A stretch of 64,000 nucleotides of DNA from Bifidobacterium cuniculi (GTDB taxonomy: Bacteria; Actinomycetota; Actinomycetes; Actinomycetales; Bifidobacteriaceae): contig NZ_JGYV01000002.1 in the NCBI RefSeq assembly GCF_000741575.1, forward strand, positions 1 through 64,000, read 5' to 3'. This document shows positions 17,182 to 62,932 of the stretch, piece after piece. The notes under the pieces are model-generated. The model had not been told where the DNA came from. It saw nothing but the letters and a program-made list of their open reading frames with translations, and made no database searches. Within the stretch, counting starts at the first letter, position 1; every line of letters starts with the position of its first letter. Position numbers and translations under genes: made by a program.

Positions 17182-17184
17182 CGC

Positions 17185-17251
17185 AAGGCCCATGGATGCG
17201 GCGAGGGGCGGTCGGGAACCCCGACCGCCCCTCGCCGCATCCATGGGCCTT
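17185..17251. terminator. Perfect 32-bp-arm palindrome, bidirectional terminator
   Basis: Arms 17185-17216 and 17220-17251 are perfectly complementary around the 3-nt loop AAC. It lies exactly between the convergent dapF and VKOR genes, and its right arm includes the first base of the VKOR stop codon region. Confidence 0.75.
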
Positions 17252-17891
17252 ACGTGAAGAGATAGGCGCCGTCCTTGACCAGGATGAGGGTGGCCATCGC
17301 CAGCAGCCACACCACGTCGATCATCAGGTCGATGTTGAGGCGGTAGTAGCGGCGCAGCCCGCGCGCCCTGGCAGGCAGGCGCTGCACGGTGACCGTCGCG
17401 TGGCTCACGGCCATGAACTGGATGGTCGTCGCGAAGAACAGCGCCAGGCACCACGGGCACAGGGCGCGAATCACGAACAGCGACTGGGAGGTCAGCCAAT
17501 AGGAGTAGGCGAGCGCCGCCAGGGAACCGAGCCAAGTGCAGGCGGCGAACCAGCGCGGCATGCGCATGCGGGCCAGACCGATGACGGCGATGGTCACGAA
17601 CACCGCCTCGGCGGCGATGCCGAAGAAGGCGTTGGGGTAGCTCAGGCCGGCGAACTTGACGATCTCGGATTGCCAGGACTGTGCGACGGCGGTGCAGGAG
17701 AGCACGGAGTTGACGTCGCAGGAGAGGGCTTGGCCGGGTTGACGTGCCATCTGCAGGGTTTCCGCCGACAGCACGAAGGAGACGAGCAGGGCCGCCAGGG
17801 ATGCCGCCAGCATCACCAGGTACAGCCAGGTGGGGCCGTGCCTCCAGCCGCGGGGCTCCTCCTGTTCGAGCATGTCGTTGTCTGCGTCCAT
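17250..17891 (-). CDS. Vitamin K epoxide reductase family protein (VKOR)
   Basis: 213 residues with about five membrane helices. The first Cys pair is in LSCDVNSVLSCTAVA and the redox CxxC is in RALCPWCLALF, as in bacterial VKOR homologues that re-oxidise a DsbA-like thiol oxidase. The quinone-binding NAFFGIAAEA segment is also present. I infer a role in disulfide formation of exported proteins. There is no DsbA domain fused and no DsbA gene in the window. The start ATG 17891 follows GAGGAGG. Confidence 0.88.
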   Translation of the reverse strand: MDADNDMLEQEEPRGWRHGPTWLYLVMLAASLAALLVSFVLSAETLQMARQPGQALSCDVNSVLSCTAVAQSWQSEIVKFAGLSYPNAFFGIAAEAVFVTIAVIGLARMRMPRWFAACTWLGSLAALAYSYWLTSQSLFVIRALCPWCLALFFATTIQFMAVSHATVTVQRLPARARGLRRYYRLNIDLMIDVVWLLAMATLILVKDGAYLFT

Positions 17892-28705: not shown

Positions 28706-28864
28706 ATGTACATCGGCCATGCAGCCCTCTACGTGAGCGTTCCGAACGCGGCGCGCCTTCCCGTCGATGCGCGCCGTGATTCAAAGGGGATTGCCACACG
28801 ATTCCCAGCCTGTTCCCAAGTTCGTGCGGTTATATATAAGTCATCAGCACAACAGCTGAGATAA
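28706..28864 (+). pseudogene. Truncated VOC/glyoxalase-like gene start
   Basis: A good ribosome-binding site (GGAAAGGAACG) and ATG open a 52-codon frame that begins MYIGHAALYVSVPNAAR. This resembles the first strand of VOC (glyoxalase/bleomycin-resistance) proteins. Similarity stops after about 17 codons, and the frame runs into the sRNA-like repeat at 28801. A -10-like ATTATAGT lies at about 28659-28666. The remainder of the gene seems deleted. Confidence 0.4.
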
Positions 28865-28940
28865 CTGAAAACCTTCTTTCTTCTCTTTCCTCTCTGTGGG
28901 GCCCGGCTTTTCCCCTTCTGGCCGGGCCCCTTCTCTTTTG
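28801..28940 (+). ncRNA. Putative small RNA, copy 1 (UC-rich, two hairpins)
   Basis: A promoter-like TTCGTGCGGTTATATA is followed by a small hairpin (TCAGC/GCTGA, 28844-28859). A 30-nt single-stranded UC-rich stretch ends at 28896. An intrinsic terminator follows (GGGGCCCGGC 28898-28907, GCCGGGCCCC 28921-28930, then TTCTCTTTT). A 42-nt block (28855-28896) is identical to copy 2. The UC-rich stretch resembles an anti-Shine-Dalgarno sequence. There is no ORF. The start of transcription, about 28845, is estimated. Confidence 0.6.
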
Positions 28941-28966
28941 CCCCTGGCCACGTTGCCGGGCCAGCT

Positions 28967-29380
28967 TCACCAGCGGCGGTGGCGGCGTCGCCTGGCGAAC
29001 CAGTAGCCCAGGAGCGCACCTCCCACGAACAGCAGGGTGGGGGCGAAGGATGACAGCGTGGCGGTCACGTCGCCGAGGAAGGATGGGCGCACCGCCATGT
29101 CGGTGCCGACGATGTTGTTGAAGTAGCCGATCAGCATGGGTCCCGTGGTGCCCAGCAGCATGGCGAATACGTACCAGCGCATCGCGCGGCGCGAACGCTG
29201 TCGGAGCATGAGCGCACCGCCCGCCAAGGGGCTGGCCAGCAGGGTGCTGGCGCCGCTGAAGGGCGTGAACATGGAGTCGGCGTCCGGCATGAGCGGCACG
29301 CGGCCCACCGCGACGAGCGCGATGAGGCCCACCGCGAGCGCGGTGACCAAGGTGCGGTGGCGGCGGTAGAACCTGCGCAT
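28967..29380 (-). CDS. LexA-box-controlled small membrane protein, unknown function
   Basis: 137 residues. A basic N-terminus (RRFYRRHR) is followed by three or four hydrophobic segments (TLVTALAVGLIALVAV, ASPLAGGALML, WYVFAMLLGTTGPMLIGYF and PTLLFVGGALLGYWFA), and it ends in RRRRHRRW. I do not recognise the family. ATG 29380 follows AGGAAGG; ATG 29416 is in frame but lacks a site. A perfect CGAAC-N4-GTTCG box sits just upstream, so expression is probably part of the SOS response. SOS-induced small membrane proteins in other bacteria block division; for this one that is only a hypothesis. Confidence 0.7.
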   Translation of the reverse strand: MRRFYRRHRTLVTALAVGLIALVAVGRVPLMPDADSMFTPFSGASTLLASPLAGGALMLRQRSRRAMRWYVFAMLLGTTGPMLIGYFNNIVGTDMAVRPSFLGDVTATLSSFAPTLLFVGGALLGYWFARRRRHRRW

Positions 29381-29398
29381 GGCTGCCTTCCTGGTGGT

Positions 29399-29412
29399 CG
29401 AACATCTGTTCG
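29399..29412. promoter_or_regulatory. LexA (SOS) operator
   Basis: The perfect palindrome CGAACATCTGTTCG matches the actinobacterial/Gram-positive SOS box CGAAC-N4-GTTCG. On the minus strand it directly follows a -10-like CATAAT (29415-29420), so LexA would cover the start of transcription of the small membrane protein gene. Confidence 0.75.
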
Positions 29413-29447
29413 CCATTATGCCCAAGCCCCTGCCCAGGGTGGTCCGG

Positions 29448-29554
29448 TGACACATTTTTCGGCCGGGAAAAATCGTGTAGGCCTGGGGACTGCACAATTG
29501 CTAATTGTGCAGTCCCCGGGCCTACACGATTTTTCCCGGCCGAAAAATGTGTCA
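29448..29554. repeat. Nested palindrome, T/A-rich class B (element 2)
   Basis: Near-perfect 107-bp inverted repeat with a GCT apex. Each arm contains a smaller palindrome, ATTTTTCGGCCGGGAAAAAT. It lies upstream of the SOS gene promoter and downstream of sRNA copy 2. A close relative is at 58600-58705. Confidence 0.8.
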
Positions 29555-29564
29555 GTGCCCAGAC

Positions 29565-29700
29565 AAAGAAAGAGGCCCGGCCGAAGGGAAGAAGCCGGGC
29601 CTCGCAGAGAGGAAAGAGAAGAAAGAAGGTTTTCAGTTATCTCAGCCGTGGTGGCTGATGGTTTTATATAACCGCACGAACTTGAAAATCAGCTGGGAAT
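29565..29700 (-). ncRNA. Putative small RNA, copy 2 (UC-rich, two hairpins)
   Basis: Inverted copy of 28801-28940. The promoter-like core (CAAGTTCGTGCGGTTATATA read on the minus strand) and a 42-nt block (29605-29646) are identical. The terminator is GAGGCCCGGC/GCCGGGCCTC: relative to copy 1 one G-C pair has become A-T on both sides, a covariation that preserves the stem. The 5' hairpin also differs with pairing kept (TCAGCC/GGCTGA). Together these changes argue for a structured RNA rather than a passive repeat. Confidence 0.6.
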
Positions 29701-52860: not shown

Positions 52861-52890
52861 GGATACAACGGCGTCTTAAGCCCTCTTTTC

Positions 52891-53008
52891 GTTGGGAGAT
52901 ATCAAATTCGGGCCCATGCCCCGGTATCCGCATTCGCAAAAGGGCGGAATGCCGCCCTTTTGCGAATGCGGATACCGGGGCATGGGCCCGAATTTGATAT
53001 CTCCCAAC
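52891..53008. repeat. Perfect 57-bp-arm palindrome
   Basis: Arms 52891-52947 and 52952-53008 are fully complementary, with the loop AATG. It contains neither the TTGTTCA unit nor a T-run at its ends. It lies in the glnD/alpha-galactosidase-remnant interval, which is otherwise free of genes (52608-53140). Confidence 0.9.
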
Positions 53009-53064
53009 GCCATGGGGCACCGTTGCCGTTGCCATGGGGTTCCCAGAGATATCTCAGATGGCAC

Positions 53065-55092: not shown

Positions 55093-55181
55093 GAGAAATG
55101 TCTCGTTTTTGTGACAAATCTAGGGCGGGGCCGCGCAGGCGGCCCCCGCCCTAGATTTGTCACAAAAACGAGACATTTCTC
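55093..55181. repeat. Nested palindrome (element 8)
   Basis: 89-bp near-perfect hairpin. Arms contain GTCTCG-T5-GTGAC and continue into GGGGCCGC/GCGGCCCC with loop GCAG; a single extra C is on the right. It is 42 bp after the second UDG-like gene and probably terminates it. Confidence 0.85.
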
Positions 55182-58599: not shown

Positions 58600-58705
58600 T
58601 ACACATTTTTCGGCGTGGAAAAATCGTGTAGGCCTCTGGCCCGCACAAATTCAAATTGTGCGGGCCAGAGGCCTACACAATTTCCAGGCCCCCGAAAAAT
58701 GTGTA
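58600..58705. repeat. Nested palindrome, T/A-rich class B (element 10)
   Basis: TACACATTTTTCGGCGTGG begins the left arm; the complementary right arm ends at 58705. The central 30 bp on each side are perfect around a single C; the outer third has several mismatches. It is homologous to 29448-29554 and lies just before the dnaB promoter. Confidence 0.78.
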
Positions 58706-62839: not shown

Positions 62840-62932
62840 GAGAAATTGTTCATTTTTTCGAACAAAGTCTAGGAAGCGGACCGCGTGAGCGGCCCGCCCC
62901 CTAGATTTTCTTCGAAAAAATGAACAATTTCT
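62840..62932. repeat. Nested palindrome (element 11)
   Basis: Left arm 62840-62872 and right arm 62900-62932 match with two mismatches. Each carries TTGTTCA-T5-CGAACAA or its complement, with a GC-rich centre. It lies between the phasin-like gene and the kinase gene. Confidence 0.83.

Follow-up and report, generated by a model that had tools for sequence, protein, structure and literature searches.

Introduction

The csRNAs of streptococci and the LhrC RNAs of Listeria are the described small RNAs nearest in layout to the RNA genes considered here. According to the available excerpts of PMC8186281, the csRNAs are controlled by CiaR, occur several to a genome, are 87-151 nt long and can face ribosome-binding sites, and in those of PMC4132741 LhrC1-5 of Listeria are controlled by LisRK and have three redundant UCCC sites and a promoter element upstream of about -53. 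A third RNA, Mcr7 of M. tuberculosis, is PhoP-dependent and is proposed to cover the tatC ribosome-binding site (PMC4038636, in excerpt). Bifidobacterial regulatory RNA is nearly blank: the B. breve transcriptome, as excerpted, has an RNA table of housekeeping RNAs (RNase P, tmRNA, 4.5S RNA) and three leaders (PMC5746004), and 11 small RNA candidates are reported for B. animalis (PMC4338058). A description of the family treated here was not found in the literature searched.

The two facing copies reported below lie in a 64,000-nt stretch of Bifidobacterium cuniculi DNA (the window, meaning the whole stretch analysed), and both are predicted to encode a noncoding RNA, about 95 nt long, that is multicopy across bifidobacteria. 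They have in common with the csRNAs several similar RNAs, direct-repeat promoters and a putative single two-component regulator, whereas the csRNA promoters carry the CiaR box TTTAAG-N5-TTTAAG in place of TTCYCAG-N4 repeats, the phylum is another one and CCUCC is avoided in the bifidobacterial RNA (excerpts of PMC8186281). The CiaR box, at up to 2 mismatches, is found 0 times in the window. Common to LhrC and the present RNA are the multicopy state, pyrimidine-rich target-binding sites and one two-component system (both candidate ones here) and an upstream promoter element, but LhrC has three UCCC sites and the bifidobacterial RNA one long U/C tract (PMC4132741, same excerpts). UCCC occurs in 46 of 67 transcripts and within the longest C/T run in 22 of them; the window copies have a single UCCC, located in the terminator loop. 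Since one defining feature of each group was looked for in this way and not found, the RNA is classed as neither csRNA nor LhrC. Mcr7, of about 350 nt and encoded by one gene in the M. tuberculosis complex only, differs from an RNA of about 95 nt with several genes family-wide, and the regulator alone, here a presumptive one, would be shared (PMC4038636, as excerpted). By analogy, the RNA is likely to resemble the csRNAs and LhrC in its way of working, with several RNAs, one two-component regulator and a pyrimidine-rich surface.

Two facing copies in the window

A sequence-only reading of this DNA had described two copies in opposite orientation that face each other and share an identical 42-nt block and a promoter-like core, with changes that preserve pairing in the terminator and an extra pair in the 5' hairpin, and each of these points is borne out (Table 1). 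The block (GCTGAG...CTCTG) is exact in both copies, and the core has GTTATAT at a fixed place in 69 related promoters. The terminator arms are GGGGCCCGGC/GCCGGGCCCC in copy 1 and GAGGCCCGGC/GCCGGGCCTC in copy 2, with pairing preserved despite the differences, the swapped pairs being GGGG/CCCC against GAGG/CCTC. The conserved part starts farther upstream than described, at 28780 and 29721. The twin inverted layout is likewise real in the window, but it is a local detail, as the number of matches per genome ranges from 1 to 11 across the genus.

Table 1. Positions of the two copies and their parts, with the gene between them, in window coordinates
Feature	Position	Strand	Basis
Copy 1, first half-site to U-rich tail	28780-28939	+	sequence reading
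Copy 1 half-sites, 11-nt steps	TTCAAAG 28780-28786, TTGCCAC 28791-28797	+	sequence; lattice from 69 related promoters
Copy 1 half-sites, best-matching two	TTCCCAG 28802-28808, TTCCCAA 28813-28819	+	sequence; lattice from 69 related promoters
Copy 1 putative -10 region GTTATATATAAG	28829-28840	+	GTTATAT conserved here in 69 promoters; function inferred
Copy 1 5' hairpin TCAGC/GCTGA, near predicted RNA start	28844-28859	+	single fold; covariation on fitted alignment
Copy 1 42-nt block, contains U/C tract 28872-28895	28855-28896	+	sequence
Copy 1 terminator hairpin (28898-28907 with 28921-28930) and U-rich tail	28898-28939	+	sequence, covariation
Copy 2, pointing towards copy 1	29721 to 29563	-	sequence reading
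Copy 2 half-sites, outer two	TTCCTAG 29721-29715, TTGAGGT 29710-29704	-	sequence; lattice from related promoters
Copy 2 half-sites, inner two	TTCCCAG 29699-29693, TTTTCAA 29688-29682	-	sequence; lattice from related promoters
Copy 2 putative -10 region GTTATATAAAAC	29661-29672	-	sequence, related promoters; function inferred
Copy 2 5' hairpin TCAGCC/GGCTGA, one pair more than copy 1	29642-29658	-	sequence, single fold
Copy 2 42-nt block, contains U/C tract 29606-29629	29605-29646	-	sequence
Copy 2 terminator hairpin (29603-29594 with 29581-29572) and U-rich tail	29563-29603	-	sequence, covariation
Gene between the copies (context, outside the RNA), hypothetical protein of about 137 aa, hydrophobic by eye	28967-29380	-	ORF

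A 21-nt core, at up to 3 mismatches, is present 2 times in the window against 0.00 in shuffles. BLASTN with copy 1 as query recovered copy 2 at E 4e-39 from its own 2.53-Mb genome and no third site at E <= 0.001; a covariance model built from 17 copies (R1) added a diverged third copy on contig C5 (135705-135821, E 4e-7), and the source genome has three copies in total by this model at E <= 0.01. The protein of the small gene between the copies has no Pfam or NCBIfam match.

The window also contains 13 long near-perfect inverted repeats with short loops and arms of at least 28 nt (among them 29448-29554, 52890-53009, 55093-55181, 17182-17254, 58621-58683 and 62841-62932), several of which have the common cores AGAAAT(T)GTTCATTTTT or GTGTAGGCC. 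One of the window's long inverted repeats separates copy 2 from the small gene; another such repeat directly follows the third copy (L104).

RNA structure and family spread

Seven of the 11 terminator pairs vary on both sides in a structure-free alignment of 17 sequences, where the terminator scores 0.357 for covariation; shuffles give 0.162, with 0 of 500 reaching the real value, and sliding the pairing partners gives 0.16 or less. When 69 distinct rows are fitted to the model, which biases the alignment towards the structure, 15 of 16 pairs vary on both sides, including all five of the 5' hairpin. The covariation suggested earlier for the two hairpins is real. Single folds of 58 transcripts leave the U/C tract unpaired at 88%, against 59% overall, and the predicted length, about 95 nt for the window copies, has a mean of 105 nt over these 58. 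A complete 10-codon ORF is missing from 59 of 67 transcripts. Both transcript sets (58 or 67) consist of distinct rows, and the larger omits L105 and L106, which are weak and promoterless.

The covariance-model search proposed with the first description was run with R1 and returned more copies with compensatory changes across bifidobacteria: all 112 genomes of the genus have matches (1 to 11 each), as do 129 of 151 family genomes, in 9 of 16 genera, and 1 of 197 genomes of a class sample, this one being the window's own. The threshold was E <= 0.01 per genome with stricter filters, by which weak matches may be lost, and the counts include the weakest matches, at E 1e-3 to 1e-5, taken without individual reading; two of the 22 family genomes without a match were assigned as G162 and G165 by elimination. 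Genome G042 has 11 copies and G036 has 10. BLASTN with copy 1 reaches just 18 of the 112 genus genomes. A looser pattern scan gave 27 loci, 14 of them in Bifidobacterium (including B. pseudolongum, B. thermophilum, B. callitrichos and B. ramosum) and 13 dispersed over unrelated groups; an exact 26-nt word of the window copies had no match in the pattern scan of the genome contig collection.

In line with the first description, no Rfam family matches: at gathering score over the whole window Rfam 15 gave only 5S rRNA and a tRNA, with nothing on the copies, and in a relaxed search (E <= 5) of nine related loci the sole match on a copy was rnk_pseudo on one of them (L008), which at 24.6 bits against the 55 needed, and E 3, is at chance level. 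Four R1 matches fall in genome G007, which we take to be B. animalis. The 11 candidates reported for that species lie at other coordinates than these four, but the strains differ and the comparison was by coordinate, so the two sets may still overlap (PMC4338058, as excerpted). Overall, it is very probable that the copies belong to a real RNA gene family.

The U/C tract

The tract has a marked vocabulary. UUCUUCU is present in 53 of 55 distinct pure C/T tracts (9.9 in shuffles), CCUCC in none (21.7 in shuffles) and UUUU in 3 (41.2 in shuffles), and CCC is partly avoided (28, against 46.7 in shuffles). When only 15 dissimilar tracts are counted, UUCUUCU occurs in 13 against 2.8, CCUCC in 0 against 6.3, UUUU in 2 against 11.3 and CCC in 7 against 13.1. 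In the whole transcript, CCUCC is found anywhere in 3 of 67.

Such a constant word, with CCUCC and UUUU avoided and CCC partly so, would suit a site for a protein that recurs along the RNAs, and the main rival to base pairing is that the polypyrimidine tract is a decoy which titrates an RNA-binding protein, with PhoP setting the dose. CsrB and RsmY titrate CsrA in this manner. The 1 to 11 copies per genome would suit a decoy, and so would the absence of target enrichment: a search of 464 kb for targets, using duplex energy and the word AGAAGAA, gave nothing beyond composition, this word having 3 occurrences ahead of starts, fourth of 21 permutations. The csRNAs and LhrC, nearest in layout, work by pairing, however, as stated in the excerpts of PMC8186281 and PMC4132741, and titration seems to us the less probable account, at about a one-in-four chance. 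Base pairing near starts is preferred because the csRNAs, LhrC and the PhoP-dependent Mcr7 are all held to pair; granted the RNA family and PhoP control, analogy with these systems gives pairing of the tract with mRNAs somewhat better than even standing.

A promoter lattice of half-sites

The sequence-only reading recognised the promoter region, but overlooked that half-sites recur upstream at 11-nt steps, a lattice pointing to PhoP. The alignment input of 70 loci gave 78 aligned matches, 4 of them without a promoter anchor, and after removal of repeats and short ends 69 promoters were left; 54 came under the identity limit and 50 entered the profile, L011, L013, L024 and L094 being omitted for a doubtful anchor. 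Over the 69 promoters TTCYCAG stands at -49 and -38 relative to GTTATAT at 0, so that TTCYCAG-N4-TTCYCAG forms an 11-nt lattice ahead of GTTATAT, and 50 promoters align gap-free. A matrix whose training used no half-site but that at -49 scored 6.1 at -49 and 5.7 at -38 over 53 clusters, was next best at -16 (-1.5) and -27 (-2.5), and had a mean of -5.8 at other places; all four positions fall on one 11-nt lattice. With one promoter left out at a time, the fixed box came out best in 42 of 53. Both window copies are among the other 11; they have weak outer half-sites, and their best-looking half-site pair lies at -27/-16, still on the lattice.

Outside the training set, the box was equalled by at most 3 of 300 single-base shuffles in 8 of 10 loci from five genera, and, when all 20 fetched extra-genus loci are taken, in 15, with 5 above. 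These 20 are a part of the R1 matches outside the genus; L260 and L266 are near-identical, and ten of the 20 are from genus g8, which we take to include the training-set species B. simiarum and B. primatium. In the source genome, a 62-nt promoter profile placed the three RNA promoters on top, followed by two weak matches (E 0.03 and 0.23).

Three further observations concern similar words. Promoters L023, L014 and L025 have an inverted repeat such as CCGCACGTTGC..GCAACGTGCGG over half-sites 3 and 4, in some promoters possibly the site of a second regulator. At window positions 53029-53057 (+), TTGCCAT, TTCCCAG and ATCTCAG follow each other at 11-nt steps and are succeeded by TATAGT, upstream of an ORF. 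Locus L140 has three tandem half-site-like words and then TACAAT near 1490-1518 (G000:C1:147066-147094), and the ORF downstream resembles a membrane protein.

PhoP as candidate regulator

Three proteins of the source genome have an OmpR-type DNA-binding domain: one GlnR-like, one MtrA-like and a single close PhoP homologue. Comparison with the PDB gave the last of these 277 bits to M. tuberculosis PhoP, the next other protein having 151, and gave the MtrA-like regulator MtrA as best match (177 bits). A regulator of the phosphate PhoB type and then one of the MprA type, both earlier candidates, were dropped when this comparison revealed the PhoP homologue. PhoP of M. tuberculosis binds as a tandem dimer to TCACAGC repeats whose spacer is strictly 4 bp, with higher affinity for three or four repeats, and the bifidobacterial TTCYCAG-N4 repeats agree with this site as it is defined in the excerpts of PMC4832192, being 7-bp direct repeats, with a 4-bp spacer, and TCACAG-like. 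Four of the six base-contacting residues are the same by alignment (Glu215, Ser216, Tyr217, Tyr220), while Val213 is replaced by Ile and Asn212 by Ala. Asn212 contacts the first A of the motif via water and also touches further bases (PMC4832192, in excerpt). In the bifidobacterial boxes C or T usually replaces that first A, which would fit the change of Asn212 to Ala, though other bases contacted by Asn212 are kept.

All 30 genomes examined share an identical PhoP helix (two of the loci, L139 and L174, being a single gene), and the half-site matrix finds a box upstream of phoP itself, equalled by at most 3 of 300 shuffles in 26 genomes and by at most 11 in all 30, at a constant distance of 55 nt ahead of the VDDE codons in 20; these are the best 30 phoP loci by score, which all come from the genus of the window and share descent. 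Strict box patterns had overlooked this box and are superseded by the matrix test. Across the family, the RNA is present in 129 of 133 genomes with a close PhoP and in 0 of 18 without, where close means 75% identity or more (over 176 residues for G163) and the two-by-two table was tallied by hand. The 18 genomes are of other genera and mostly small, so this co-occurrence could come from descent alone. Genomes G121, G128, G134 and G145 have a close PhoP and no R1 match, their RNA genes being either lost or diverged.

On the strength of these sequence correspondences, PhoP probably controls the RNA genes, by inferred binding and activation. The half-sites of real RNA genes might instead be read by another regulator, such as the MtrA-like one, as the source genome also encodes, besides PhoP, another OmpR-type response regulator that falls in the same structural class; this is improbable, since a box is absent ahead of the MtrA-like gene in that one genome (164 of 300 shuffles equal) and present ahead of phoP, motif and spacer agree with the published PhoP site (PMC4832192, as excerpted), and the third OmpR-type protein is GlnR-like.

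A similar box, TTCACAG-N4-TTCACAG, stands ahead of a ClgR-like gene a few nt before a possible -10 (L122 near 1501, G000:C1:156446), and boxes of this type are also seen at L110, L117, L120, L124, L126 and L129. The gene product matches NF041677 below its cut-off. The clgR gene may share the PhoP-type box regulon; the scores of its boxes are circular, because most clgR promoters were found by that same pattern.

Start regions and genomic context

The tract had been likened to the 3' end of 16S rRNA and thought able to pair with ribosome-binding sites. Its pure U/C composition stands, and by duplex energy over 370 predicted starts it favours start regions (-11.1 kcal/mol) over gene interiors (-7.1 kcal/mol), as an anti-Shine-Dalgarno copy binding ribosome-binding sites generally, like the 16S rRNA tail, should do. 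Seven shuffled tracts, however, pair with starts at -11.4 to -13.3 kcal/mol, 7 of 7 at least as well as the real one with its mean of -11.1, so the claimed pairing does not go beyond shuffles, and the CCUCC core of the likeness is the very word that the 55 tracts, and the 15 left after thinning, lack. With UUCUUCU retained and CCUCC avoided, the tract is not an anti-Shine-Dalgarno copy in our reading, which leaves that explanation a very low probability.

Least probable of all is a cis-acting leader or attenuator, or a mobile repeat, in place of an independent RNA gene: copy 2 is directed at the small gene between the copies, genomes have several copies and the next predicted gene is on the same strand in 39 of 70 copies by crude gene calls, but copy 1 is tail to tail with the small gene, the next gene is on the opposite strand in 28 of the 70 by the same crude calls, scanned neighbours are AraC, TetR, ABC2-membrane and PAP2 proteins with no transposase, and covariation of the hairpins with fixed promoter spacing is conserved, unlike in the repeat moving without conserved pairing that had been named as the refuting case.

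Proposed mechanism and significance

The genes, the covarying hairpins, the family spread, the 11-nt lattice and the box before phoP are given by the sequence alone. In the mechanism that we favour, the genes would be transcribed under PhoP, which would bind and likely activate them through the tandem TTCYCAG half-sites, and the unpaired U/C tract would silence mRNAs by pairing with purine-rich segments close to where these begin. With several gene copies, the dose of one RNA would be both strong and graded, and the signal may be envelope or acid stress, a guess by analogy with LhrC and mycobacterial PhoPR. We put the probability that all steps of a PhoP-activated multicopy small RNA silencing mRNAs through its U/C tract hold jointly at about 0.5.

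In the tubercle bacillus, the PhoP system is a virulence regulator. More tentatively, and with odds that we would place a little against it, bifidobacterial PhoP might have an RNA arm as a main output, with 1 to 11 genes per genome throughout the family, each with a PhoP lattice, and a UUCUUCU tract kept free of CCUCC by selection, which would read a separate purine code or hold a pyrimidine-binding protein. On that reading, bifidobacteria would have here their first RNA regulon under a two-component system.

If the PhoP-activated silencing RNA is true, a single regulator drives a multicopy RNA throughout an entire family that includes gut and probiotic bacteria, in an arrangement that would parallel those of streptococci and Listeria in a different phylum. 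What is gained is a named candidate regulator, a code for the promoters and a word rule, with UUCUUCU retained and CCUCC shut out, all directly testable.
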